From contig NZ_CP022098.1 of assembly GCF_002305875.1 (NCBI RefSeq), positions 11,284,001-11,348,000 on the forward strand: 64,000 nucleotides of DNA, in the 5' to 3' direction. The notes beneath the pieces were generated by a model that did not search any database, had not been told where the DNA came from, and was given only the letters and a program-made list of their open reading frames with translations. This document shows, piece by piece, positions 39,434 to 63,195 of the stretch; the stretch's first letter is position 1; every line of letters starts with the position of its first letter. Made by a program: the position numbers and the translations under genes. The DNA comes from Cystobacter fuscus (GTDB taxonomy: Bacteria; Myxococcota; Myxococcia; Myxococcales; Myxococcaceae).

Positions 39434-41011
39434 ATGAAGAATACGAAGTTCAACGCGCTCTCCACCGTGACGGCGTTGTTCGCCAGCATCGCCACCGTGA
39501 ATGCCTTGCCAGCCGTTGCCGAGGCAGCTTCCGCTGACAAGAGCGTGACCGCGCCGGAGGTGTCGCCGGACATCCTCAACGCGATGCGTCGGGACCTGAA
39601 GGGCACCGAGGAGCAGTTGCTGCGCCGGCTGGACTTCGAGGCGAAGGCGCCCTCCCTGGAGCGGGGCCTGCGCGAGCAGCTGGGAGACCGCTTCGGCGGC
39701 GCCTGGTTGAACGAGGAGGGCACCGGGCTCATCGTCGGCGTCACCGACGAGGCCAGCGCCGCGCGCGTTCGCCGCGCTGGAGCCGAGCCCCGGCTCGTCA
39801 AGCACAGCAAGGCGCGGCTGGACGAGGTCATGGCGGAGCTGGATCGCAACGCCCACAACGCGCCCGCCTCGGTCTACTCCTGGTACGTGGACGTCGCCAC
39901 CAACAGCGTCGTCGTGCAGGCCGAGAGCGCCACGAGCCTGATGGCCTCGCGCGCCCAGTCGTTCACCGCCCTGAGCAGCGGCGCCAAGGACGGGACGATC
40001 CGCGTGGAGCACTCCGCCCAGGCCCCGCGCCCGGCGTACGACGTGCGCGGCGGCGAGGTCTACTTCACCGGCACCGGGGCCGGTGGCTCCTATGCCGCGT
40101 GCTCGGTGGGCTTCTCCGTGTACGGCGGCTTCGTCACCGCGGGACACTGTGGCAGCGCGGGCACCCCCACCCTCGGCTTCAACTGGCAGGCCATGGGCAC
40201 CGTCCGCGCGTCCGTCTGGCCCGGCAATGACTGGGCGTGGGTGGCCACCAACAGCTCGTGGACGCCGCAGCCCTGGGTGTACAACTACGCCAACGCCCAC
40301 GTCCTGGTGCAGGGCTCCAACGCGGCGGGCATCGGCGCCTCCATCTGTCGCTCCGGCAACACGACGGGCTGGCGGTGTGGAACGCTCCAGGCCACGAACA
40401 TCACCGTCAACTACTCCAATGGCCCCGTCTATGGTCTGTCCAAGACCAACGCGTGCGCCGACCCCGGTGACTCGGGTGGCTCGGTCATCTCCGGCAACCA
40501 GGCGCAGGGCGTGACCTCGGGCATCGCGGGCGGTTGCGCCAGCAGCGCTCCCCAGACGTTCTTCCAGCCCATCAACCCCATCCTCAGCGCCTACGGCCTC
40601 ACGCTCGTCACCAGCGGCGGCAGCAGCGGCGGCGGCGCGTCGTTCGTGTCGCGGATGAACGGCAAGTGCATCGACGTGCCCAACAGCAACTTCTCCGACG
40701 GCGTCCAGCTGCAGATGTGGACCTGCAATGGCACCAACGCCCAGAAGTTCACCTGGGACGGCGCCCGGCTGAAGATCGGCGGCAAGTGCATGGACGTGTC
40801 CGGGGCCTCCACGGCCAACGGCACCCGCATCCAGCTCGCCAACTGCAATGGCAACCGCGCCCAGGACTTCACGCTCAGCCCCGCGGGCGACCTGGTCAGC
40901 TACCTCGCCGACAAGTGCGTGGACATCGAGGGCTTCAACGCCAACGACGGCGCCAAGCTGAGCATCTACACCTGCAACGGCACCTCGAACCAGAAGTGGG
41001 ACTTCCGCTAG
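39434..41011 (+). CDS. Secreted S1 (alpha-lytic-like) serine protease with ricin-type lectin domain
   Basis: The 525-residue preproprotein has a signal peptide (residues 1-31), then a pro-region of about 160 residues rich in Ala and Arg, as in S1E proteases that fold with a foldase prodomain. The catalytic domain (about 200-395) shows His in VTAGHCG, Asp in NDWAWV and Ser in DPGDSGGS, a complete triad. A Gly/Ser linker leads to a ricin-type CBM13 domain (about 405-525) with CIDVPNS and QKFTW/QKWDF repeats. It probably degrades prey proteins while bound to glycans. It is transcribed divergently from the GH18 gene. Confidence 0.92.
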   Translation: MKNTKFNALSTVTALFASIATVNALPAVAEAASADKSVTAPEVSPDILNAMRRDLKGTEEQLLRRLDFEAKAPSLERGLREQLGDRFGGAWLNEEGTGLIVGVTDEASAARVRRAGAEPRLVKHSKARLDEVMAELDRNAHNAPASVYSWYVDVATNSVVVQAESATSLMASRAQSFTALSSGAKDGTIRVEHSAQAPRPAYDVRGGEVYFTGTGAGGSYAACSVGFSVYGGFVTAGHCGSAGTPTLGFNWQAMGTVRASVWPGNDWAWVATNSSWTPQPWVYNYANAHVLVQGSNAAGIGASICRSGNTTGWRCGTLQATNITVNYSNGPVYGLSKTNACADPGDSGGSVISGNQAQGVTSGIAGGCASSAPQTFFQPINPILSAYGLTLVTSGGSSGGGASFVSRMNGKCIDVPNSNFSDGVQLQMWTCNGTNAQKFTWDGARLKIGGKCMDVSGASTANGTRIQLANCNGNRAQDFTLSPAGDLVSYLADKCVDIEGFNANDGAKLSIYTCNGTSNQKWDFR

Positions 41012-45196: not shown

Positions 45197-46183
45197 GTGA
45201 ATCGGACGCGGTCGAGGTCATCACGCCACCAGGGCAGAGGAAGTCTCGGCGGTCTGGCGCTCCTGGGCGCCCTGTTGGCCGGCTGCGAGACGTACTTCGT
45301 GGACCCCTACCCGCCCGACATCAGCACCCTGCCCCGTGAACGGGTGATGAAGGTGCGCGATACTCCCGTGGTCTACGGCCTCATCTTCGACCTCCACATT
45401 CCCAATGCCGCCGAGTGCACCCGCGTCAAGGGGCAGCTGACGGCGACCCTGCGGGCCGCGCTGCTCCCCCCGGGCCGGGAGGGGATGGAGCTGTCCGTCC
45501 ATGACCTCTCACCGGGGTGTGTACAGCCCAGCCAACGGACGTACCCCTATACCCGCTATGCGGAGCAGCACGCGGCGGCGGTGGCACGCTTCGGTCAGGG
45601 ACGGTTCAAGCCGGTGTTGCTCTACTTCAACAACGTGGAGCTGACGCTTCCGCCGTCCCTGAGGGAAGACTTCATCAATCTGCAAAACGGGGGCGGCAAC
45701 TCCCCTCAAGTCTGGGCCCTGACGACCCAGGAGGTCCTGAGCAACATCCGGTTCACCCAGAGCGCGCTCTGGACCTACAGCTCGGATCCCCGCCTGACGG
45801 CGAAGCTCGAGGAGCTGGCCCGGGCGCAGTTGCCTTTCATCCAGCACGAGCAGCCCCCCGCGGGGGGCTTTGCCCTGTTCACCTCGCAGGAGCTCTCCTG
45901 GGTGCGGGAATTCAAGGGGTGTACCTACGCGACCGGCCTGAGCGGCATGAACTTCGTCTACGGACCCCAGACCCTCACGGTGAACGCGGCCTATCCCCCC
46001 CGCTACCAGGTGACCGTCCCCACGCAGGAGCCGGTCCCTCGCAACCAGAAGCTCGAACCGGTGACCATCCGCTTCGCGCTCGAGGCGTGTCGCGAGCATT
46101 GCGAGCGCTTCTTCTCCACCTCCGAGGGCGAGTTGCTGTCCTGGAACGCCACGCCCCGCTGTCTCCTGTCGGGCTCCCTCTGA
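45197..46183 (+). CDS. Lipoprotein opening the motor-like operon
   Basis: A 328-residue protein starting with GTG. A signal ends LLGALLAGC, a lipobox with +2 Glu, so it may go to the outer membrane. The body has a VYGLIFDLHIPNAAECTRVK segment, an RFKPVLLYFNNVELTLPPSL strand, YPYTRYAEQHAA and several Cys that could form disulfides (GCVQPSQ, GCTYATGL, CREHCERF, PRCLL). No family is recognised. Its TGA overlaps the ATG of the next gene (TGATG at 46181-46185), so it leads a ten-gene operon. The last half repeats TxxxVPTQEPVPRN-like beta strands. Confidence 0.7.
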   Translation: MNRTRSRSSRHQGRGSLGGLALLGALLAGCETYFVDPYPPDISTLPRERVMKVRDTPVVYGLIFDLHIPNAAECTRVKGQLTATLRAALLPPGREGMELSVHDLSPGCVQPSQRTYPYTRYAEQHAAAVARFGQGRFKPVLLYFNNVELTLPPSLREDFINLQNGGGNSPQVWALTTQEVLSNIRFTQSALWTYSSDPRLTAKLEELARAQLPFIQHEQPPAGGFALFTSQELSWVREFKGCTYATGLSGMNFVYGPQTLTVNAAYPPRYQVTVPTQEPVPRNQKLEPVTIRFALEACREHCERFFSTSEGELLSWNATPRCLLSGSL

Positions 46184-46785
46184 TGCTCTCCGGACTCCTC
46201 CTCGTCCTGCTCGCCGCGGATCCCGCCTCGCCCATTCCCGGCACCGAGGGCACGCCCGTGCGCGTCGAGCGGCGGCTCCTGCTCAAGCAGGGCCACGTGT
46301 TCGCCACGGGAGGCCCGGGCTACCTGGCGCGCGGCGACTACTACAACAACCCGGGCCTGCTGCTCTCCGGGAGCTGGTACCCGATGGAGACGGGCGGCGT
46401 GGAGCTCAAGCTCGCCCTGTTCTTCTCCTCGCTCAGCGCCGCGGGCTCCGAGGTCTTCGACCGCACCGGCCTCGTCCCCGACGCCCAACGCCCCGTCGCG
46501 CTGCTCGCGGCCGGCTGGCGGCATGCGCTCGGCTACGGCAAGGTGCTCGTCGGCACCGGGACGCTGCTGCACTTCGACGTGCAGGCCGCCGGCCACCTGG
46601 GCTTCACCTTCACCGATCGCGGGGTGAGCCCCTCGCCGATGGTCGGCCCCGGCCTGCTCGTGCGCGTGAGTCCGCGCGTCCACGCCCAGCTCGATGTGCC
46701 CCTCGTGGTGACCTTCGAGAAGCGCCAGCGGGGACTCGTGTCGCTCGGGGTACTGCCCACGCTGACGTTCGGGGTGGTGCTGTGA
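46183..46785 (+). CDS. Predicted outer-membrane beta-barrel protein
   Basis: About 200 residues. A signal peptide (MLSGLLLVLLAADPAS) is followed by alternating strands rich in Gly, Tyr and Leu (LYLARGDYYNNPGLLLSGSW-like, LALFFSSLSAAG) and ending LPTLTFGVVL, an aromatic/hydrophobic terminal strand typical of outer-membrane barrels. It overlaps both neighbours: the ATG shares bases with the previous stop and its TGA overlaps the next GTG. The function is probably structural or a pore for the operon's complex. Confidence 0.6.
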   Translation: MLSGLLLVLLAADPASPIPGTEGTPVRVERRLLLKQGHVFATGGPGYLARGDYYNNPGLLLSGSWYPMETGGVELKLALFFSSLSAAGSEVFDRTGLVPDAQRPVALLAAGWRHALGYGKVLVGTGTLLHFDVQAAGHLGFTFTDRGVSPSPMVGPGLLVRVSPRVHAQLDVPLVVTFEKRQRGLVSLGVLPTLTFGVVL

Positions 46786-48485
46786 GGGTACCGCTGCTCG
46801 CGGTGGCGCTCGCCACCCATCCCTACGCCGAGCCCTTCTGGGCCCGCGATCTCACCGCGCTGGTGGAGCGGCTCACCGCGCCTCCCGTGGACCCGGCCGA
46901 TGCCGAGCGGCAGCGGCTCTTCGGCGACGTGGTGAGCTTCCTCAACTGCGAGCCCCTCGCGCCGCTGCGGCCCGAGGACAGCCCCCGGGCCCCGCGCGCT
47001 CTGTTGCGACTGGAGGTGGCCCGCCGGGGCCGGCTCGGCGCGTCCGCCGCCTCCTCCGCCACGCTGTGGCGCGACGTGCTCACCCCCGACTTCTTCCGGC
47101 GCGCCGCGCTGCTCCCCAAGGAGCAGGCGCTGCGCTGGCCCATCGAGGAGGAGAACTGGTCCTCCGAGACGCTCGAGCTGCGGCTGCGGCCCTCGTCCTG
47201 TGGGCAGCCCGTCCCCGCCACGGATGAGCTGCCCCTGCTCACCTCCGAGCTGGAGCAGGAGGTGGACAAGACCCTGGGCGCGGAGGTGGCGCACCGGCTG
47301 CTCTACCACCGCGCATCCCGGCTGCTCACGCTCGGGCGGGCCGACGAGGCGCGGGAGGTGGCGCGCCGGTTGAATCCCTCCGCCATGGGCGACGCCCTGC
47401 GGCCCCTGGGCCAACTGCTGCGGCTCGGCCTCGGAATCGATCCCCCCGCGGGCTACCTGTCCCTCGTGGACGAGCCCGTGCTCTCCCCGTTGCGGATGCC
47501 CATCGTCGCGCAGGCCGCGGCGCACCTGTCCACCGAGGCCCGCTGGCGGGAGGTGCTCGCGATCACCGAGCCCTACGCCCCGAGGCCCGATGCCCGGGCC
47601 TCCCTCTCCGAGTCGCCCCAGCGCTGGGATGTCTTCTACCGGCGGGCGCTGGCGTACCAGGCGCTCGGGGAACGAGAGTCGCTCGCGCGCATGTGGCCCT
47701 CCATCTTCCCCGCCCTCGCCAGCGCCCAGGACTCCCGGGTGGAGGCGCTGCGAGGCATCGCCCTGGCCGATCTGGCGCGCGGCACGCTGGACACCCAGGC
47801 CCTGACGCTGCTGCGCGACCTGGGACCCGCCGCCGCCTTCCCCCGGCGGCTGGCCACCCTGGGAGGCCTCGCGCTGGACCGGGGCAACGTGCGGCTGGCG
47901 CTCGACGTCTCCGAGCGGTTGCTCCTCGAGAAGAGCGCCCTCTTCCGGGTCCGGGGGCACACCCTGCGCGCCGAGGTGGCGCTCGCCTCGGGCGACGCGA
48001 CGGGGCTCACCCGCGCCATCGAGCGGCTGCTCTCGCTGCGCCGTCAGGAGCCCGTGCCCACGAAGGACCTGGAAGAGGTGGACCGCATCGTGCTCGCGCT
48101 CGCACAGACGTTGGTGACGGCGAGCGCGGACCTGACGGAGGCGCGGTGGCGCCCCCTGCTCGCCGCCCAGTTGGAGGGGATGCGCCAGGCGGTGCACTCG
48201 CGCCACGAGAAGGCCTTTCCCGCGCTCCTCGCGGCACTCGAGGACCGGGGGCCCCAGGCGGCGGCGAAGGGCAAGCGACTGGAGGCCTTCGTCGCGGTGG
48301 GCCAGGTGGCGGTGGGCGCGCCTCCGGGACTCGAGCCTCCGCCGCCCCTCACCGTGAGCTGGCCAGAGCTGTGGTCCCTGCTCGCCCTTCCCCTTCCCGA
48401 GGGCTCCTGGCGCGACTGGTTCCCGCGCGAGCCCGCTTCCCCCGTCTCCGCTCCCGCGAAGACCGAGGTTCCGCATGCGCCGTGA
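46782..48485 (+). CDS. Helical-repeat (TPR-like) protein
   Basis: The 567-residue protein begins with GTG inside the previous stop (GTGA). The N-terminus is hydrophobic (VRVPLLAVALATH) and may be a signal. The rest is helical, with TPR- or SEL-like blocks: RLLTLGRADEAREVARRLNP, YQALGERESLARMW and LALDRGNVRLALDVSERLL. Such arrays bind protein partners. The end is Pro-rich (EPPPPLTVSW). No family is recognised. It overlaps the next gene by 11 bases. Confidence 0.6.
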   Translation: MRVPLLAVALATHPYAEPFWARDLTALVERLTAPPVDPADAERQRLFGDVVSFLNCEPLAPLRPEDSPRAPRALLRLEVARRGRLGASAASSATLWRDVLTPDFFRRAALLPKEQALRWPIEEENWSSETLELRLRPSSCGQPVPATDELPLLTSELEQEVDKTLGAEVAHRLLYHRASRLLTLGRADEAREVARRLNPSAMGDALRPLGQLLRLGLGIDPPAGYLSLVDEPVLSPLRMPIVAQAAAHLSTEARWREVLAITEPYAPRPDARASLSESPQRWDVFYRRALAYQALGERESLARMWPSIFPALASAQDSRVEALRGIALADLARGTLDTQALTLLRDLGPAAAFPRRLATLGGLALDRGNVRLALDVSERLLLEKSALFRVRGHTLRAEVALASGDATGLTRAIERLLSLRRQEPVPTKDLEEVDRIVLALAQTLVTASADLTEARWRPLLAAQLEGMRQAVHSRHEKAFPALLAALEDRGPQAAAKGKRLEAFVAVGQVAVGAPPGLEPPPPLTVSWPELWSLLALPLPEGSWRDWFPREPASPVSAPAKTEVPHAP

Positions 48486-49638
48486 AGCCATCGTCCTCCT
48501 CACCGGGCTCCTGTGGGCGCTCGGCGCGGGGGCCCAGACGCCCACAGAAGAGGCGCCGCCGACGTCACCCCCCGACAACGAGATGTCCGCCGAGGCCAGC
48601 ATCTACGCCCGGCCGCGCACGCCCCCACGGCTGGAGGCGCGCGAGGGACGGCTCGTGCGACCGGGTGACCGCGTGGACGCCAACGACGTGCTGGATGAGA
48701 TCATCGACGAGTTCGCCGCGGACGTGGCGCGCCTGGGCGCCAGCCGCATCTCTCCCATCCTCCTGGAGCGGGTGCGCGTCTCGGAGAACATGAATCCCGA
48801 GTTCGCGAGCGTCTTCGAGGCGCGCCTGGTGGCCGCCATCTACCGCGCGGCGAACGTGCGGGTGGTGCGCTGCTACGAGTGCTACGCCACGCACGCCCAG
48901 GTGGAGGATGGCACGTGGGTGGTGCGCCGGGGTCTGGCGCGCCGAGAGGACCTGCAGGAGGTGATGAAGAAGTACAACGCCCAGGTGGTGCTCAGCGCGA
49001 GCCTCACCCTGTACACCGCGCCCAACTCCTTCGCGTTCGACGTGGAGATGGTGCGCGGGGATGACGCCTCCATCTTCTTCGCCGAGGGCTACCGGGTGCA
49101 CCCGCACACGGCGCTGCTCTACCGCTCCGCGGACAAGGTGCAGCACCGGGAGGCGCGGCTCAAGGACCTGGAGGACCGCATCAACGCGAAGCCGCGCTTC
49201 AATCACGCGGTGCACCTGGGCGCCATCATCATCCCCACCCAGAACCATCCGGACGGGGCCATCTGGGCGCCCTACACCGCCTACCGGTTCACCGAGGCGT
49301 TCGGGGAGGAGCGCACCTGGCGCGCGGGCGGGACGGTGGCGGCCATCATCAACCCCACGCGCATCGGAGGCGCGCTGCTGGAGGCCACGCTGCTCTCGCG
49401 CATCAACAAGGAGAACGTCTACAGCATCAACTGCTTCGGGGGCGGTTCCGTGGGCTTCCTCGTCACGGGGGTGACGGGCAACTCGCCCATGATCAACGCC
49501 CAGGCGGAGTGTGTGCTGGCGCACCGGATCACCGTCCAGGCGAGCCTCGGGTACCTGGTGCCCTTCGCGAGCAGCGAGGACAGTACGTATTTCGTGGGCG
49601 GGGTGACCCCGCAGCTAGGGATGGGTTTCACATGGTGA
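48475..49638 (+). CDS. Exported protein with predicted C-terminal beta-barrel
   Basis: A 387-residue protein with a signal peptide (VLLTGLLWALGAGAQ). The middle (about 60-200) is an alpha/beta domain with VVRCYECYATHAQVEDG and VVLSASLTLYTAPNSF, resembling FlgT- or CsgG-like ABC/periplasmic domains. From about 235 the alternating strands (AVHLGAIIIPTQNH, GGTVAAIINPTRIGG, SVGFLVTG) finish TPQLGMGFTW, with a terminal aromatic residue as in outer-membrane barrels. It could be the envelope ring or channel of the complex. Comparison to FlgT-like domains is a weak structural hint. Confidence 0.6.
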   Translation: MRREAIVLLTGLLWALGAGAQTPTEEAPPTSPPDNEMSAEASIYARPRTPPRLEAREGRLVRPGDRVDANDVLDEIIDEFAADVARLGASRISPILLERVRVSENMNPEFASVFEARLVAAIYRAANVRVVRCYECYATHAQVEDGTWVVRRGLARREDLQEVMKKYNAQVVLSASLTLYTAPNSFAFDVEMVRGDDASIFFAEGYRVHPHTALLYRSADKVQHREARLKDLEDRINAKPRFNHAVHLGAIIIPTQNHPDGAIWAPYTAYRFTEAFGEERTWRAGGTVAAIINPTRIGGALLEATLLSRINKENVYSINCFGGGSVGFLVTGVTGNSPMINAQAECVLAHRITVQASLGYLVPFASSEDSTYFVGGVTPQLGMGFTW

Positions 49639-50309
49639 ACTCCAGGTACTGGGGATTGCTGCTCGCGGCGGTGCTGCCCGCGTGCACGACCACTCCGACC
49701 ACCAAGGTGATGGTGGTGCCGGATGAGATGCGGCGCTCGGCGGCCCCGAGCCGGCGGCCAGGAGCCGACAGGGACAGGGGCCCGCCCCTCACGCCGCCGC
49801 AGAAGTACATCCTGCGTCTGGCCGAGAACGGCCGCGTGTGGGAGATGGAGCTGCCCGAGGAGTCGGGGGGCTACGAGGTGCGCCTGCCGCTCGCGGGCGG
49901 AAGTCCCGTGGAGATGCTCACCTCCGCGGACGAGGAGATGCTCGCCGAGTCCGTGCTGGGCTTGAAGCAGGACAAGGCCCCCGCGTCCAAGGGCGAGACG
50001 AAGCCGGCGGGCAACGCCCCGGTGGTGGACGCGAACCGGGCGGCGCGCACGCGCAGCTACCTGGGGGGCGTGGCGCGGGTGAAGGAGATGTACGCCGCGC
50101 GCAAATACGAACTGGCCCTCATCGAGCTCGTGGCGCTGGAGAAGGAATACCCCCAGGACGCGCGGCTGCTGGCCATGAAGGGCTCGCTCTACGTCAAGCT
50201 GAACCAGCCCAAGCTGGCCCGGCAGGCGTGGGAGAAGGCCCTGTCCATCAATCCGGACGACGCGGGCGTGGCCGAGGCCCTGCGCGCCACCACCGCGGGA
50301 GAGGAGTAG
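49632..50309 (+). CDS. TPR lipoprotein
   Basis: About 225 residues, with a lipobox LLAAVLPAC. A short beta segment (QKYILRLAENGRVWEMELPE) is followed by a linker and a C-terminal TPR pair (AARKYELALIELVALEKEYP, LLAMKGSLYVKLNQPKLARQ). It overlaps the preceding stop by seven bases (ATGGTGA) and stops four bases before the MotA-like gene. The arrangement resembles pilotin- or PilF-like lipoproteins that stabilise outer-membrane assemblies. GTG at 49635 is an alternative start. Confidence 0.65.
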   Translation: MVNSRYWGLLLAAVLPACTTTPTTKVMVVPDEMRRSAAPSRRPGADRDRGPPLTPPQKYILRLAENGRVWEMELPEESGGYEVRLPLAGGSPVEMLTSADEEMLAESVLGLKQDKAPASKGETKPAGNAPVVDANRAARTRSYLGGVARVKEMYAARKYELALIELVALEKEYPQDARLLAMKGSLYVKLNQPKLARQAWEKALSINPDDAGVAEALRATTAGEE

Positions 50310-50313
50310 GACC

Positions 50314-51114
50314 ATGCACTTCATCGTCGGAATGCTGGGGCTCGGCCTGACCCTGGCCTACACCCTGACCCAGGGGCACGCGAGCGGCTTCGGGGGCATC
50401 ATCCACGTGCCCTCGCTCGTGCTGCTGGGGTTCGCGCCGCTGTGCATGACGGTGGCCTCGTACAAGTTCAGCGAGCTCGGGGGCGCGGCGCGGGCGGTGG
50501 TGCGCGCGCTGCGCTTCTCCGCGTCGCGCTCGCGCGCCCAGCTCTATGAGGCCCTCACCCAGTTCGCCGCCGAGGTGCGCCAGCGTCGTCCGGCCCGCGC
50601 GCTGGAGATCGCCAATCAGGCGCAACACGACGTGCTGCGGCAGCTCGGGCCCCTCGTCATCCGCCAGTACTCCACCGCGGACATCGAAAGCACCGCCAGC
50701 ACGTCGCTCTTCTGCATGGTGAGTGGCATGAAGCGCGCCGAGGACGTCCTGGGCACGCTGTCGCGCGTGGCGCCGGCCACGGGCCTCGTGGGCACGGTGC
50801 TCGGACTCATCTCGCTGCTCAAGGACCTGTCGCGCTTCGAGCAGCTCGGCCCCTCCATGGCGCTCGCGCTCTTGTGCACCCTGTACGGCCTGCTGCTCGC
50901 CAATGCCGTGTACCAGCCGCTCGGACGCGTCATCCACTCGCACATGACGGTGGCGGTGGAGGAGGCGCGGCTCATCACCCGCGCGCTCGTGCTCATCCGC
51001 GAGGACAAGCCGCTCGCGGACGTGCGCAAGCTCTTCGAGCTGTCCGGCACCTCGCCCCATGGCGCGGGCGCCCCGGCCGCCGAGATCGCCACCGGAACGG
51101 CGGGTGAGCCGTGA
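50314..51114 (+). CDS. MotA/TolQ/ExbB-family proton channel protein
   Basis: The 266-residue protein has four membrane segments: residues 1-18, about 26-50, about 150-168 (VAPATGLVGTVLGLISLL) and 187-210 (GPSMALALLCTLYGLLLANA). The TGLVGTVLGL signature and the large cytoplasmic loop between segments 2 and 3 are those of MotA. With the next gene it should form a proton-driven stator. A GAGGAGTAGG ribosome-binding site lies before the ATG. The tail is short, unlike the long tail of ZorA in the Zorya defence system. It is not part of a flagellar operon. Confidence 0.88.
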   Translation: MHFIVGMLGLGLTLAYTLTQGHASGFGGIIHVPSLVLLGFAPLCMTVASYKFSELGGAARAVVRALRFSASRSRAQLYEALTQFAAEVRQRRPARALEIANQAQHDVLRQLGPLVIRQYSTADIESTASTSLFCMVSGMKRAEDVLGTLSRVAPATGLVGTVLGLISLLKDLSRFEQLGPSMALALLCTLYGLLLANAVYQPLGRVIHSHMTVAVEEARLITRALVLIREDKPLADVRKLFELSGTSPHGAGAPAAEIATGTAGEP

Positions 51115-51737
51115 AGGAGGATCCAGAGCTGCAAGAGATGCTGCGAGGCGGCCAGGAGGACGAGCTGTGGCTCATCAGCTACGCGGACCTGCTGACGCTG
51201 CTCATCGGCTTCTTCGTGCTGCTGCTCGCCGTGTCGCCGCCGAAGATGGCGCAGTTCGAGCGCATGGCGGCCTCGCTCTCGGGCGAGGCGCCCCCCCTGG
51301 AGGAGCTCAAGGACAAGGTGGACACCTTCATCACCCAGGAGGGGTTGCAGCAGAAGGTGCTCACCCGCCAGGAGACGGACGGGCTGGCCATCGAGTTCAA
51401 GGACGCGCTCCTGTTCGACTCGGGCTCGGCGGACATCCGCGCCGAGGGCAACGCGGCGATCACCTCGATCGCCCGGATGCTACAGACGCTGCCCTCTCGT
51501 GGGCTCGTCATCGAGGGGTACACCGATGACGTGCCCATCCGCACCGCCCGCTTCGCCTCCAACTGGGAGCTGTCCTCGCAGCGCGCCATCAACGTGCGCA
51601 CCGCCCTCGAGCAGAGCGGTGTGGGCCGTGAGCGGATGTCGGTGCGGGGCTTCGCCGATACCCGCCGCGTCGACGTCCCGGGCTCGCCCGAGGAACAACG
51701 CGCCGCCAACCGCCGGGTCGTCATCCGGGTGGAATAG
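51111..51737 (+). CDS. MotB-like stator protein with OmpA-type peptidoglycan-binding domain
   Basis: The 208-residue protein starts with a GTG overlapping the MotA-like stop (GTGA). One membrane span (about 19-40, ELWLISYADLLTLLIGFFVL) contains Asp26, placed like the proton-carrying Asp of MotB. A short linker and plug-like helix lead to an OmpA-type domain (about 95-208) with LLFDSGSADIRAEG, EGYTDDVPI, NWELSSQRA and ANRRVVIRVE, which binds peptidoglycan. It is compact compared with flagellar MotB. Confidence 0.9.
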   Translation: MKEDPELQEMLRGGQEDELWLISYADLLTLLIGFFVLLLAVSPPKMAQFERMAASLSGEAPPLEELKDKVDTFITQEGLQQKVLTRQETDGLAIEFKDALLFDSGSADIRAEGNAAITSIARMLQTLPSRGLVIEGYTDDVPIRTARFASNWELSSQRAINVRTALEQSGVGRERMSVRGFADTRRVDVPGSPEEQRAANRRVVIRVE

Positions 51738-51740
51738 CCA

Positions 51741-53453
51741 ATGACTCGCCTGTCACGACATCTTCTGCCGCTGCTTCCCGTCCTGGCCTGGGCGGGCATT
51801 GCCCCGGCCGCGCCCTCCACGCCCCAGGCCCGCCTGCGCGCGGAGTCCGAGGAGCGGGCTCGCACGGAGATCACCGATTTGTTGCGCACCCTCTGCCCCG
51901 AGCAATGCGTGCTCGTGTCGGTGGAGGCCCGCGTCGAGGAGGAGGCCGTGGGCGGCGCGGCTCCGGGCTTCGAGAGCCTGTCGACGAGCGCGAGCCTGCC
52001 TACCCTGCGCTCGGTGAGCGCGCGCGTGCTGACGGACAGCCAGCTACCGGGCCCCTTCCGCACCCGGCTCAAGGACCTGGTGGCCCAGCGTCTCAAGACG
52101 GTGAGCGCCCAGCCCACGGTCGAGATGGAATCCGTGGCCTTCCCGCCACGCAACGCCCCCCACCTGGAGGCGCCCCCCCGCGAGGCGAAGCCGCCCCCGC
52201 CCTCGGCCACGCCCACCCCTCCACCCGAAAACGAGCCAGAGCCCAAGCCCGAGGTGCCCCTGAGCCAGCGCGCCGAGGAGCGACTGCTGGAGGCGGCCCC
52301 CTTGCTGGCGGTGGCGGCGCTGCTCGCGCTGACGGTGCTGGTGCTGGGCGTGCTGCTCGTGGTGGCCACCCGCCGCGCGTCGCCGCCCCCGGGCCTGGAG
52401 TATGGGCCGGAGCTGCCCCTGCCTCCCCTCGAGCCCGCGCCCGCGGCCCCTCCCGCCCCCACCGAGTACCCGTCCCAACGGGCCGGGCGGCTGGAGCGGA
52501 CGCTGCGCGAGGAGCGCTCGGTGCGCAACGCCGTGGTGCGCGAGGCGCTCGCGCGGGGCGAGCTGCGGCAGGTGGCGCTGTGGACCCGGGAGATGGGGGA
52601 GTTCCTCCTGGAGGACCTGAGAGGAGACCCCGCTCTGTCCGCGTCGCTGGTGGGACTCGCCGCCGAGCTGGGGCGCGTGCCCTCCGTGGACGAGGGAGCA
52701 CGGGCCTCCGCGCTGTACGACCTGGAGGGGCGGACCATCGCCTCGCGGCTGACCCAGGCGGAAGGCTCGGTGGAGATGGCCTTCGCCTTCCTGGAGGGGG
52801 TGCGGCCCGAACGCTTCGCGAGCGCGTGCCTGGGCCTGGCGCCGGGAGCCCGGGAGGTGGCGCTGCGCTTCGCGCCCTCCGCGCTGCGCTCGACGGCCCT
52901 GCAGTCCCTGAACTCCGCCCAGCGACGGGAGCTCGCGCTGGGCCTCGCCCGCCAGCCCGAGCTGAGCACGCGCTACGCCCTGGCGGTGGCGGACGAGCTG
53001 CGCACCCAGCTCGCCGAGAGCACGGGAGGCGTCTCCCAGCTCGAGCGCGTCCTGGGCGAGGTGCTCGACACGCTGTCCATGGCCGATCAGGACCGGCTCG
53101 TCGAGCGGCTGCGGCAGGAAGGCTCGGAGAAGCTGGCCTCGTCCCTGGTCACCGAGTCCACCCTGGTGAACGCGCCGGTGGAGGTGCTCGGTGCGGCCCT
53201 GCTGCGCCTGCCCGCGGCCCAGGTCGTCACCTATCTGAGTGGGGCCGAGGGCTCGTTGCGTGAACAACTGTTGAATGCCTGCCCCGCCTCGCTCCAGCGC
53301 GAATTGCGCGAGGAGCTGGGAATGCGCGGCGGGGGACGTCCAGAGGAGTTCACTGGCGCCAGAAGAGAGCTGCTTGCCTGTGTGAAGGATGAGATGATTC
53401 GCAGGGGATTGAGCACATCGCAGAATGGCGCGCGCGCCGGGCGCGCCAATTGA
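51741..53453 (+). CDS. FliF-like/FliG-like fusion (rotor-like ring protein)
   Basis: The 570-residue protein has a signal peptide (1-23), then a periplasmic domain at about 30-136. Its order is a helix (RTEITDLLRTLC), a strand with VLVSVEARVEEEAV, a SVSARVLTDSQLPGPF strand and RTRLKDLVAQRLKTV helix, ending in VEMESVAFP, like the ring-building part of FliF. A Pro-rich linker and one membrane span (about 186-210) follow. The cytoplasmic part (about 250-560) is helical. Its last 90 residues align by pattern with FliG-C: TLVNAPVEVLGAALLRLP, VVTYLSGAEGSLREQLL, ELREELGMRG, then ARRELLACVKDEMIRRGL. That is the domain stators push in flagella. It directly follows motA- and motB-like genes. This is inference from pattern, not a search. 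Confidence 0.7.
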   Translation: MTRLSRHLLPLLPVLAWAGIAPAAPSTPQARLRAESEERARTEITDLLRTLCPEQCVLVSVEARVEEEAVGGAAPGFESLSTSASLPTLRSVSARVLTDSQLPGPFRTRLKDLVAQRLKTVSAQPTVEMESVAFPPRNAPHLEAPPREAKPPPPSATPTPPPENEPEPKPEVPLSQRAEERLLEAAPLLAVAALLALTVLVLGVLLVVATRRASPPPGLEYGPELPLPPLEPAPAAPPAPTEYPSQRAGRLERTLREERSVRNAVVREALARGELRQVALWTREMGEFLLEDLRGDPALSASLVGLAAELGRVPSVDEGARASALYDLEGRTIASRLTQAEGSVEMAFAFLEGVRPERFASACLGLAPGAREVALRFAPSALRSTALQSLNSAQRRELALGLARQPELSTRYALAVADELRTQLAESTGGVSQLERVLGEVLDTLSMADQDRLVERLRQEGSEKLASSLVTESTLVNAPVEVLGAALLRLPAAQVVTYLSGAEGSLREQLLNACPASLQRELREELGMRGGGRPEEFTGARRELLACVKDEMIRRGLSTSQNGARAGRAN

Positions 53454-53464
53454 GGGGATAGTTC

Positions 53465-54505
53465 ATGCGCGCGTTGGGGCTGATTCTTGTCGCCACCCTG
53501 GGCAGCGGCTGCATCATCGAGCCACCGGATCTGATCCGCTTGGACGGAGGAGATGAGTGGCCCGATGGGGGCAAACGTCCGACATCGGACGGCGGCTTCG
53601 ACATCGAATGGGACGGCGGTCTCGGAGGCGGAGGTGGCGGCTGGGACGGCGGAGCCTGGGACGCGGGCTCTGGGCCACGGGGGAACTTCCCGGGTGGCGG
53701 CGCGAACGGAGACCGTGGAACGGGCGTACTCTGGCTGGTGCGCATCGACCGGAGCACGGCGAATCTGGCCGCCTCGTATGGCTCGCTCATCGAGACGATG
53801 ACCCAGCAGCTCATCGCCCAGGGCTTCGACATCCGGAGAACGGCCGTGGGCTCGCTCTATGAGCCGAGGCTGTTGTCGGGCAACGAGAGCGCGACTCCAT
53901 CCGCCGCGAGCGTGCAGTCCCTGCTGGAGAGCGCGGCCACCTACAGCGGCACGACTCCCACCGGCTGCAGCAGCCAGCACCTGCTGTCGCTCACGGTCCG
54001 GCTCAGCGAGGCCACGGTGGCATCGTCTGGCTCCCGTCCCTTCGCGGACCCGCTCGGCGCCCTGCTCGTGGTGATGATCGACCATGGGAGCCATCCGCAA
54101 GACTACGGCCCCGGTTGTGACCCGGCCGAGAAGACCCCGGCGGAGCGGTTCGGCGTCGAGCACATGCCCTGGCTCAACATCGGCAGTCCCCCGACCTCCG
54201 CCTGGCGCATCCCCCGATCCCAGACGCGCTTCCTCTTCGTCTCCACGTCGGAGAACGAGAGCTACGCGCAGTTGCGTGAGCGCTGCGCGAGAATGAGCAC
54301 CTTCCCGCGGACCGCGCTCGATGCCATCAGCCCCTCGGAGCACCCCTTCTACGAGCCCTTCAGCGTCGGGCTGAACGGCTTCCAGCCCGGACTGGGGACG
54401 CGGATCGACCTGTGCCAGGCCGTGGCGCAGGACTGGGCGGGCTTCTCGCGCGGCTTCGCGAGGAACTGGGCCCAACTGCTGAGCCTGCCCGCCGACCAGA
54501 GATGA
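53465..54505 (+). CDS. Lipoprotein with Gly/Asp-rich linker
   Basis: A 346-residue protein with the lipobox LGSGC. A Gly/Asp-rich linker (GGGGGWDGGAWDAGSG) leads to a globular domain of vWA-like alternation: VLWLVRIDRSTANLA (a possible metal-site start), LLVVMIDHGSHPQDYGPGCD and FLFVSTSENESY. Cys residues probably form disulfides. The fold call is tentative. The gene is 11 bp after the FliF/FliG-like gene and overlaps the next one by an ATGA. It may be an envelope partner of the motor. Confidence 0.6.
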   Translation: MRALGLILVATLGSGCIIEPPDLIRLDGGDEWPDGGKRPTSDGGFDIEWDGGLGGGGGGWDGGAWDAGSGPRGNFPGGGANGDRGTGVLWLVRIDRSTANLAASYGSLIETMTQQLIAQGFDIRRTAVGSLYEPRLLSGNESATPSAASVQSLLESAATYSGTTPTGCSSQHLLSLTVRLSEATVASSGSRPFADPLGALLVVMIDHGSHPQDYGPGCDPAEKTPAERFGVEHMPWLNIGSPPTSAWRIPRSQTRFLFVSTSENESYAQLRERCARMSTFPRTALDAISPSEHPFYEPFSVGLNGFQPGLGTRIDLCQAVAQDWAGFSRGFARNWAQLLSLPADQR

Positions 54506-55107
54506 GGGCACGGGGCGCACCGCGAAGGGCCGGGCCGGTGGCGGGGGGAGTCCGCACCGCCTGGCGTCCGCGCGGAGCGCCCCGAGTCGTGGCCGCACGT
54601 GGGGCCAGGAGGCGCCCGACCGCCGCGTCCCGGCCCGCGCGGCGCTGGAGGTGGGGCCTCGCGGCGCTGCTCCTACTGTTCATGCTCTTCTGGCTGTGGC
54701 CCTCCACTCCCGAGCCCGTGCCCCCACCCGTGGCCGTGCCCGAGGCACCACCGCCGCCCCCCGTCGTCACGCGACCGGTGGTGAAGAAGAAGGTGGCACC
54801 CAAGCCCTCCCCTCCCCCCCCGGCGGCGCCCATGTCCTCGCAGCGGGCGCTGCTGCGCCGGGCCATGGAGGCGCGAGCCCCGGACCTGCGCGCCTGCGCC
54901 CTGCCCCCCGGAGCGCCCACGACGCTGGGAGCGAGGATTCGCGTGGCGCGCGGGGGAGCCACGAAGTCGGTCGCCTTCGCGTCCGGACAGCGCCTGCCCC
55001 GGGAGCTGGCCGAGTGCCTTCGCCAGCGCCTGCTCCAGTGGGAGTTCTCGGACGTGGGACTGAGCTCGGACGTGGAGATCTTCGTCGACTTCGCGCTCGG
55101 CGGATGA
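54502..55107 (+). CDS. Single-span TonB/AgmX-like protein
   Basis: The 201-residue protein has an Arg-rich N-terminus (about 1-48), one membrane span (WGLAALLLLFMLFWLW), a Pro-rich stretch (PVPPPVAVPEAPPPPPV) and a Lys-rich segment. It ends in a small domain with ALLRRAMEARAPDLRACALP, GARIRVARGGATKSVAF and ECLRQRLLQWEF. The layout is like TonB or the GltJ/AgmX proteins, which couple an inner-membrane motor to the outer membrane. Its ATG overlaps the previous stop. It ends the operon just before a strong hairpin. Confidence 0.7.
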   Translation: MRARGAPRRAGPVAGGVRTAWRPRGAPRVVAARGARRRPTAASRPARRWRWGLAALLLLFMLFWLWPSTPEPVPPPVAVPEAPPPPPVVTRPVVKKKVAPKPSPPPPAAPMSSQRALLRRAMEARAPDLRACALPPGAPTTLGARIRVARGGATKSVAFASGQRLPRELAECLRQRLLQWEFSDVGLSSDVEIFVDFALGG

Positions 55108-60060: not shown

Positions 60061-60798
60061 TCAGCTCCGGGACGCCGGCCCGGTGGCCTTGCGCCAGGCG
60101 CCGATGATGTGATCGATGACCGACTGGAGCCCCACCCCCTTGGTCACCTGGGTGAAGACGAAGGGCCCGTCGCCGCGCATCTTCCGGGCATCACGCTCCA
60201 TGACGGCCAGATCCGCGCCCACGTGCGGCGCGAGGTCCGTCTTGTTGATGATGAGCAGGTCCGACTGGGTGATGCCCGGCCCGCCCTTGCGCGGCACCTT
60301 GTCCCCACCCGCCACGTCGATGACGTAGAGGGTGTAGTCGGCCAGCTCCCGGCTGTACTGCGCCGCCAGGTTGTCGCCACCGCTCTCCACGATGAGCAGC
60401 TCCGGCTTGAGCTCCTCCATCAGCTCTTCCAGGGCGAGCAGGTTGTGGCTGATGTCCTCGCGGATGGCCGCGTGGGGGCAGCCGCCCGTCTCCACCGCCT
60501 TGATGCGCTCGGGCGACAGGGCCTGGTTGCGCACGAGGAACTCGGCGTCCTCCTTGGTGAAGATGTCGTTGGTCACCACGCCCAGGCGGTAGTTGTCGCG
60601 CAGCGCCCGGCACAGGGCCAGCACCAGCGCCGTCTTGCCACTGCCCACCGGCCCGCCAATGCCGATGGTGAAGGAGCGCTGGGCGAAGTCGGCGCGGTGG
60701 GGCTTCTCGCGTTCGTGGAAGTGCCCGGGATGGTCCCACTCCTCGTGCGTGTGGTCAGCGTCGTCCTGGCCGTGGCCACGGTGTTCGTCGTCGTGCAT
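60061..60798 (-). CDS. ureG: Urease accessory GTPase UreG with His-rich N-terminus
   Basis: The 245-residue nickel-chaperone GTPase has a P-loop [23 protein letters not shown], and [12 protein letters not shown] as the guanine-specificity motif. [16 protein letters not shown] carries the nickel-binding CPH. Before the GTPase core, the first 38 residues hold nine His (patterns HRGHG, HTHEEW, HPGHFH), a likely nickel store. It is the last gene of the urease operon in transcription order. No ureE is seen, so the His-rich tail may do part of its job. Confidence 0.95.
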
Positions 60799-60806
60799 GG
60801 ATCACC

Positions 60807-61469
60807 TCAAGAGAGAAAGAGCCGCGAGTACAACCGGTCATGCGTGGAGCCGAGCAGGTCCAACAACGGTGACGTCTGGGCGAGCGCCTCCAGGCCCAGT
60901 CCGCCACAGGTAGCGAGCACCTCGTCGAGCAGTGGGGTGAGCTGGTGCTGAAGCTGGTGGGACTCGTGCGTGCCGACGATTCCCATGCGCACCGCCGCCG
61001 ACAGCGCGCCGCGGAGCGACAGGGACAGCAGGAGCTGCTGGGCCTCGAGCAGCTCCACCTCCAGCACGCGCAGCACCGCGCCGAAGAGGGGCGCGTGGTG
61101 GAAGCGCACCCCGGCCTCGCGCGCGGCATGGCGCAGGGGCCCGACCTGCTCGGGGAAGATGCGCGCGCAGGTGTCCAGGAAGGCCCGGCCCTGGGTGCGG
61201 CTCGCCCGGTTGGCCACGTGGTTGGTGAGGAACGCCTCCACCCGCGCGTCCACCACCGCCACCTGGGAGGGCTCGCGGTGGGCGGCGCCCAGCGCGGGCA
61301 GGGCGCCATGCCCCACCTGCCAGAGCAGCTCCCGCGCGAAGCGCTCCAGCCCCTCGCGGCCGCGCACCTCGCCGTGCTGCACCGCCGCCTCCAGTCCCCC
61401 CGAGTGCGCGAAGCCCCCGGTGGGAAAGCCCGAGTCCGCCAGCTGCAACACCCTCCAGGAAGAGCCCAT
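60807..61469 (-). CDS. ureF: Urease accessory protein UreF
   Basis: The 220-residue protein has the UreF start LQLADSGFPTGGFAHSGGLE and is helical throughout, with QLQHQLTPLLDEVL near the end and a STHDRLYSRLFLS tail. UreF works with UreG and UreD/H to insert nickel into urease. The ATG at 61469 begins MGSSWRVLQL and lies 10 bp after ureC ends. The stop is eight bases before the ureG start codon. Confidence 0.92.
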   Translation of the reverse strand: MGSSWRVLQLADSGFPTGGFAHSGGLEAAVQHGEVRGREGLERFARELLWQVGHGALPALGAAHREPSQVAVVDARVEAFLTNHVANRASRTQGRAFLDTCARIFPEQVGPLRHAAREAGVRFHHAPLFGAVLRVLEVELLEAQQLLLSLSLRGALSAAVRMGIVGTHESHQLQHQLTPLLDEVLATCGGLGLEALAQTSPLLDLLGSTHDRLYSRLFLS

Positions 61470-61479
61470 GGTGCGAGTC

Positions 61480-63191
<1,712 letters not shown>

Positions 63192-63195
<4 letters not shown>

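Follow-up and report, generated by a model that had tools for sequence, protein, structure and literature searches.

The window, by which we mean the whole stretch of 64,000 nucleotides of Cystobacter fuscus DNA analysed here, carries an operon of ten genes on the plus strand between positions 45197 and 55107, in which neighbouring genes either overlap by 1 to 11 bases or are separated by gaps of 3 to 11. Listed in their order, the genes are as follows.

45197..46183, plus strand: gene 1, predicted lipoprotein of 328 aa, GTG start, LLAGC lipobox by reading
46183..46785, plus strand: gene 2, protein of about 200 aa, by reading a predicted barrel-like protein of the outer membrane; start at CTG 46180 or ATG 46183
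46782..48485, plus strand: gene 3, exported protein of 567 aa, signal by reading
48475..49638, plus strand: gene 4, protein of 387 aa with a predicted TolB-N/LpoB-like domain in the periplasm (71-210) and an 8-strand outer-membrane barrel (239-387), from the model, Foldseek and VIA
49632..50309, plus strand: gene 5, TPR lipoprotein of 225 aa beside motA; start chosen, a longer frame running from 49509
50314..51114, plus strand: gene 6 (motA), MotA/PomA-type stator protein of 266 aa, ATG start
51111..51737, plus strand: gene 7 (motB), MotB-type stator protein of 208 aa, GTG start, with a plug helix and an OmpA-like peptidoglycan-binding domain
51741..53453, plus strand: gene 8, rotor-like protein of 570 aa whose signal peptide is followed by a periplasmic domain, a single helix through the membrane and a cytoplasmic part resembling FliG
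53465..54505, plus strand: gene 9, predicted lipoprotein of 346 aa, LGSGC lipobox by reading
54502..55107, plus strand: gene 10, TonB-like protein of 201 aa with one membrane span, a Pro-rich stretch and a TonB/AgmX-tail-like end

A gene read as metK lies 70 bases past the end of the operon, on the opposite strand and facing it. Elsewhere in the window we read a trypsin-like protease that is secreted and has a lectin tail of the ricin type (39434-41011) and the urease genes ureG, ureF and ureC on the minus strand (60061-63195).

An earlier, sequence-only reading had recognised genes 6 and 7 as a compact stator pair. The pair is real, but it does not stand alone: the operon and its conservation rule out a lone stator pair, and a FliG-like gene, overlooked in that reading, lies directly 3' of it. 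The features then ascribed to the two proteins were borne out, i.e., the TGLVGTVLGL motif is present in the translation of 50314-51114, Asp26 of the MotB-like protein is invariant in all 14 aligned MotB-like proteins, and the OmpA domain is complete (PF00691, E 9.7e-18, profile positions 1-96 of 98). Pfam also assigned gene 6 to MotA_ExbB (PF01618, E 8.8e-17) and gene 7 to MotB_plug (PF13677, E 1.9e-12), and gene 7 matched E. coli MotB in hhalign at E 2.5e-19. The GTGA overlap of four bases between the two genes exists as described, but it does not imply the fixed stoichiometry once read from it; since equal overlaps occur at 46782 and 54502, it points to translational coupling within the operon. 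The operon proteins were also searched for phage origin, which was rejected: PHROGs of unknown function were returned for MotA and MotB, and none for genes 4 and 8.

The remaining genes are of envelope type. Gene 1 had no Pfam match, although its homologues hold the same place in relatives; gene 2 had no credible Pfam match, and gene 3 matched no family above its cut-off in family profile scans, including Pfam. The structure model of gene 4 (mean pLDDT 72.2; the other four of the five models 51-56, the next best 56.4) placed its barrel close to OmpW 2f1t (VIA Z 16.2, 2.4 A, 135 aligned) and residues 71-210 close to LpoB 4q6l (VIA Z 12.3, 3.7 A, 129 aligned). Gene 5 matched TPR_1 at E 1.4e-5, under its cut-off in Pfam, and gene 10 matched NF033768 at E 0.03 (14.4 bits, under its cut-off of 40). 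Together, genes 4, 5, 9, 10 and 1 may offer a path to the outer membrane. Family profile scans recognised no FliM, export, rod, hook or filament genes in the operon.

We then determined the class of the stator. Against PDB profiles the MotA-like protein matched PomA best (2.4e-31), followed by MotAs down to 1.5e-17, while ExbB and TolQ reached 2.1e-6 and 1.6e-3, respectively. The phylogeny that the sequence-only reading had proposed as its check was built twice. A quick tree of 67 rows, which took in 34 of 70 PF01618 matches (nine of the remainder being cluster MotAs that entered through a separate MotA search), placed the protein among MotAs of flagellar type, with a value of 100 for the split from the TolQ/ExbB side. 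A careful tree of 49 rows again placed it on the flagellar-stator side, split from TolQ/ExbB at 100/100; from this tree 22 generic-side rows were omitted, together with E. coli MotA (long branch, 3.07) and the type II MotA (see below) of G010, and rows L077 and L088 were relabelled as flagellar-type. "Flagellar-type" here is a tree label, flagellar neighbours not being confirmed row by row, and neither tree included rows named AglR, AglQ or ZorA; a Methylobacterium plasmid protein considered as a named MotA row was a weak match (29%, E 1e-3) and was left out. In the careful tree the 17 MotAs of the present operon type (type I) were separated at 100/100 from a neighbouring group, in which type II MotAs stood together with those of flagellar type; they did not form one clade, and a single clade was not rejected (AU p 0.352). 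The source genome, a single contig of 12.35 Mb, has eight MotA_ExbB genes in all, and the seven other proteins fell on the TolQ/ExbB side in both trees. Trees and PDB profiles together thus rule out membership of TolQ/ExbB. TolQ and ExbB also have threonines at the two channel positions of MotA. An attempt to tell Na+ from H+ by these threonines was dropped, since every type I and type II row has them, as do nearly all flagellar-type rows.

It was also considered whether the operon is a minimal Zorya-like antiphage system. Among the eight operon proteins scanned with PADLOC, the MotB-like protein matched ZorB models, the best at 1.1e-23, which can be explained because OmpA and plug domains are shared. 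The MotA-like protein gave no match at E<=1 and the six others besides the stator pair gave none, so that ZorA, ZorC, ZorD and ZorE went unmatched, in agreement with the earlier remark that a compact MotA/MotB-type stator stands here without ZorC, ZorD or ZorE neighbours. With MotA in the flagellar class, we consider the probability of a Zorya-like system close to negligible.

Gene 8, the FliG-like gene, matched FliG_C in Pfam at E 7.8e-6 (26.6 bits, above the cut-off of 23.3). Its structure model, built from 9 sequences, was of moderate quality (mean pLDDT 69.5, pTM 0.33) and showed a periplasmic alpha-beta-beta-alpha-beta domain, a long helix that contains the membrane span, and a cytoplasmic part made up entirely of helices, arranged as follows.

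51804..52145, plus strand: gene 8 codons 22-135, periplasmic domain resembling RBM3 of FliF, C52 and C56 invariant
52263..52373, plus strand: gene 8 codons 175-211, helix with the single membrane span
52557..53417, plus strand: gene 8 codons 273-559, FliG-like region with two acids, E524 and E525, at the D288/D289 site of FliG

All 13 Foldseek matches of this model at E<=1e-3 were FliG or C-ring entries. In the VIA comparisons, where a Z below about 13 for helical folds may reflect merely a common arrangement, it aligned with FliG 4fhr (Z 14.2, 10.1 A, 148 aligned), FliG-C 1qc7 (Z 13.3, 1.9 A, 89 aligned) and the MotAB-bound FliG-C of 8ucs (Z 12.7, 2.0 A, 88 aligned). Residues 273-559 aligned with FliG 8wiw_3 over 243 positions (Z 14.1), the rmsd of 20.3 A indicating that the domains are set differently from those of FliG. 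Residues 22-135 aligned with the RBM3 domain of FliF (8z5v; Z 11.1, 3.5 A, 99 aligned) and, 1 Z apart, with MamB (5hok; Z 10.1, 1.9 A, 81 aligned). The models support the FliG fold and, less clearly, the ring fold of gene 8, which has one ring-type domain and one membrane helix where FliF has three ring domains and two membrane helices (PMC4768692). At the level of profiles, the gene 8 profile (A2) found FliG 3usw in the PDB at E 1.2e-4 over 229 positions, with the nonflagellar chain 2qk2 (0.014) among the weaker FliG matches. The type I profile matched the single E. coli FliG weakly in hhalign (prob 4.6, E 0.0088), and the match to E. coli FliF was not significant (E 0.45). In the far copies of gene 8, MgtE_N outscored FliG_C (L049) or was the sole match (L050), all of these under their cut-offs. 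The two cysteines of the periplasmic domain, C52 and C56 (CPEQC), were invariant in 12 of 12 aligned rotors, two far copies included, and could possibly form a disulphide in the ring domain.

According to PMC7564593, MotA contacts D289 and R281 of FliG through its R90 and E98. The charges at these and related sites were counted in type I, type II and flagellar rows, the 5 flagellar FliG rows being those of 14 loci tried that passed the ORF filter. On the stator side, the R90 site was basic throughout (all 17 type I, all 6 type II, and all 14 flagellar-type rows), whereas the E98 site was acidic in 1/17, 5/6, and 14/14, respectively; the neighbouring column, window column 98 of MotA, held an acid in 7 of the 17 type I rows. 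On the rotor side, the D289 site was acidic in 13/14 type I, 7/7 type II, and 5/5 flagellar rows, the D288 site in 12/14, 0/7, and 5/5. Basic residues occupied the R281 site in 9/14, 7/7, and 5/5 rows, the K264 site in 1/14, 1/7, and 5/5, and the R297 site in 4/14, 0/7, and 5/5. Gene 8 of the window itself has Glu-Glu at D288/D289, Arg at R297, and Ser at both R281 and K264. The EHPQ motif of FliG binds FliM. This motif, as EHPQ or EQPQ, occurred in all 5 flagellar rows and in none of the 14 type I and 7 type II rotor rows. By these counts the main torque pair is kept, the other charges are kept only in part, and the FliM site is gone.

A reading that makes use of this partial retention is that MotAB acts like ExbBD or TolQR, energizing the TonB-like product of gene 10 so that it works on the outer membrane, with the FliG-like protein as a fixed dock or brake for the stators instead of a ring that turns. 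It draws on the TonB/AgmX-tail-like protein (a weak match), the TolB-N/LpoB-type domain on a barrel and the predicted lipoproteins in the operon, and on the observation that, of the charged sites tested, type I keeps well only MotA R90 and FliG D288/D289. It has to contend with a MotA of the flagellar class, not of the ExbB/TolQ class, and with a FliG-like M/C region whose acid at the D289 site is kept in both lineages. Furthermore, no gene 10 match came up in BLAST at the loci of G070 and G067 or in the called type II genes; this is weak evidence, since the type II rotor, which is homologous, escaped BLAST there as well. On balance we hold this reading to be unlikely.

To see how far the operon extends, we searched 195 Myxococcota genomes. 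The type I rotor gene was found in 18 of them (12 of the 18 in the tally being >=90% complete and <=5% contaminated), and MotA of this type (>200 bits; next 128) in 17, all within the 18 rotor carriers; in the 18th (G081), which lacks this MotA type, the rotor match sits at a contig end. The copies fall into six family groups (f1, f2, f10, f12, f15, and f17), and in the family of the source genome 6 of 58 sampled genomes have the operon. A contig scan with two peptide patterns returned 8 loci (Archangium lansinium, six Deltaproteobacteria MAGs, and one Myxococcales MAG); it missed the far copies and thus does not bound the range.

Synteny was determined by comparing the window genes by tblastn with 17 loci from 16 other genomes, whose frames were re-read. 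All ten genes were present in one order and on one strand in 9 of the 17 loci (L034-L038, L040, L041, L043, and L044), of which L034 and L037 end inside gene 1, while the TPR frame of L038 and genes 9 and 10 of L043 appear broken or merged in draft assemblies. Five shorter loci (L039, L042, L045, L047, and L048, with 7, 7, 3, 2, and 5 genes, respectively) kept the order, and three, all from far relatives, were rearranged (L046 with 4 genes, L049 with 9, and L050 with 7); in L049 and L050, gene 4, the TPR gene, motA, motB and gene 8 are still adjacent. The dN/dS ratio, a plain NG86 estimate on GC-rich genes, was 0.21-0.27 against G011 for motA, motB and gene 8 and 0.54-0.71 for the fast genes 1, 3, and 9; against G008 it was 0.41-0.79 across all ten genes. 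These values bear on the idea that the operon is left over from a lost flagellum and is decaying. MotAs and FliGs of flagellar type are indeed common in the phylum, and flagellar remnants are known (PMC12199754). Decay is, however, hard to reconcile with ten genes in one order in nine relatives, with dN/dS well below 1, with a spread over six family groups, and with a reshaped rotor protein accompanied by seven further nonflagellar genes, and we judge it highly improbable.

Most of the carriers turned out to have no recognisable flagellum. Flagellin (PF00669) was found in 1 of the 18 type I carriers (G070), the source genome being among those without it, and in 2 of the 8 type II carriers. An ordinary FliG at E<=1e-6 was present in 2 of the 18 type I carriers, G070 and G074. 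The FliM profile found nothing in 8 of the 15 carriers tested, gave 46-51 bits in 6, and 205 bits in G074, a 75% complete genome that has FliG and FliM and no flagellin; the match in the source genome sits near its type III secretion system (T3SS)-like genes. Several carriers are incomplete, which makes a missing flagellin or FliG there a soft result. With the stator pair lying in a conserved operon that also encodes a membrane-anchored FliG relative, these mostly flagellum-less carriers appear to have retained a reduced motor of flagellar type for another task at the envelope.

Further FliG_C domains came to light in the course of these searches. The T3SS-like locus of the source genome encodes a 500 aa protein with FliG_C above the cut-off (1.1e-6; L010:1042-2541, i.e., about 3308820-3310320 of G000:C1), which sits between SctJ-like and SctL-like frames, the place of FliG between FliF and FliH; a like protein of G020 (L159:7587-9353) matched FliG_C at 1.3e-7. 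Myxobacterial T3SSs are described as lacking FliG in the account given by PMC3459982. A 200 aa frame of G178 (L158:7803-8405) combines one likely membrane helix with a FliG_C domain (3.5e-11).

The other machines of the cell raise the question of whether genes 6 and 7 belong to an auxiliary stator set for one of them, the Agl-Glt gliding motor or a T3SS. Besides motA, the source genome does have seven MotA_ExbB genes, as well as two FlhA/SctV genes, and AglRQS is what Myxococcus uses for gliding (PMC9389320). The operon, however, has rotor-like and envelope genes of its own, the T3SS-like loci found lie megabases away from it, and only the 6 of 58 sampled genomes of the family given above have it. 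We regard an auxiliary role as improbable.

A search of the phylum with FliG_C revealed another FliG fusion, which we call type II and in which the joining of FliF to FliG is more evident than in gene 8, in 8 of the 195 genomes (G010, G091, G095, G099, G100, G111, G163, and G192); no genome carries both types. MotA lies close by in 7 of the 8, the contig of G111 ending too early. In the two loci read whole (L150 and L151; the others were read in part) the operon consists of a FliF-FliG fusion, a TPR-like protein, MotA, MotB, and a second MotB. The TPR-like protein precedes motA in L150, L151, and L156, as it does in type I. The two MotB-like genes are consecutive (L151:11008-12321, L150:3977-5324, L154:10745-12102, L155:7488-8797, and L156:2847-3887), which may be compared with AglQ and AglS beside AglR. 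In the five fusions scanned, FliG_C scored 49-85 bits and YscJ_FliF_C was under its cut-off in 3. The type II profile matched a solved FliG at 2.4e-37, E. coli FliG at E 1.2e-10, and E. coli FliF at 0.003 (prob 10), and the N-terminal half matched the C terminus of a relative's FliF at 8.5e-8; this C terminus is PF08345 (57 bits) and lies directly 5' of the fliG frame. Type I and type II rotors aligned in hhalign with prob 96.8 and E 2.7e-10, within the FliG part. On this profile comparison, we take the second lineage to settle the homology of the FliG part of gene 8. The two types have in common the four-part core and a rotor homologous in its FliG part. They differ in that type II has another gene order, a second MotB, and a ring domain that is longer and has an end of the FliF type, its MotA falls inside the flagellar-type group, and none of the other six genes of type I was recognised in it by BLAST.

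We think it probable that the operon encodes an ion-driven rotor-stator machine derived from flagellar motor parts and working without a flagellum. In such a machine, MotA5MotB2 units (the stoichiometry being that of homologues) would grip the peptidoglycan through the OmpA domain, and ions would pass Asp26 of MotB. The turning MotA wheel would contact the FliG-like C-terminal domain of gene 8, copies of which would be held as an inner-membrane ring by the RBM3-like domain and the one membrane helix. Rotation or stepping of this ring would then be passed across the periplasm to the outer membrane, the products of gene 5 (TPR lipoprotein), gene 10 (TonB-like) and gene 4 (TolB-N/barrel) serving as the link. 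The sequence itself shows the operon, its conservation, its domains and the retention of the main torque residues; ring assembly, rotation, force transfer and the output for the cell are inferred. A broader proposal is that a rotary machine independent of the flagellum exists in Myxococcota in two or more lineages, with a FliF-FliG fusion ring that is driven by MotAB stators of its own and passes force, by turning or stepping, to outer-membrane partners, and with neither an export apparatus nor a filament; on this our judgement is evenly divided.

Among the open-licence PMC papers listed by our searches (at most 20 for each), none showed a description of this operon system. A survey from 2025 reports rotor proteins without a filament in 11% of nonmotile species and raises another function as a possibility (PMC12199754), and flagellar-class stators have been described as one flagellum-associated clade (PMC12505986). 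The operon presents a concrete case, in which a stator of the flagellar class comes with a fused rotor-like protein of its own in bacteria that mostly lack flagellin; should the motor turn, the flagellar engine becomes open to study, and its evolution to argument, apart from the flagellum. With the flagellar motor it has in common MotA and MotB of the flagellar class, a FliG-like M/C region with the acid at the D289 site, and possibly an RBM3-like ring domain. It differs in that a single chain with one membrane helix unites the parts resembling FliF and FliG, the FliM-binding motif is absent, and seven further genes of envelope type are present. Zorya ZorAB likewise includes a MotB-like OmpA protein, while the MotA-like protein of the operon is just 266 aa long and has no long ZorA tail. 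The AglRQS-Glt system of Myxococcus resembles the operon in combining a stator-type motor with outer-membrane partners (PMC9389320), and a TonB/AgmX-type tail, a weak match in gene 10, may be common to both; AglRS, however, is placed in the generic-transporter clade (PMC12505986), whereas the motor of the operon is of the flagellar class and comes with a FliG-like protein. The closest precedent is the FliF-FliG fusion of Chlamydia, a natural fusion in bacteria not regarded as flagellated (PMC4768692). As described there, it is about 330 aa long with homology to the M region of FliG, and the flagellar genes named in that account are FliF, FliL, and FlhA only, with no MotAB (PMC4768692). To such a fusion the operon adds the C domain of FliG, a stator pair, and the envelope genes.
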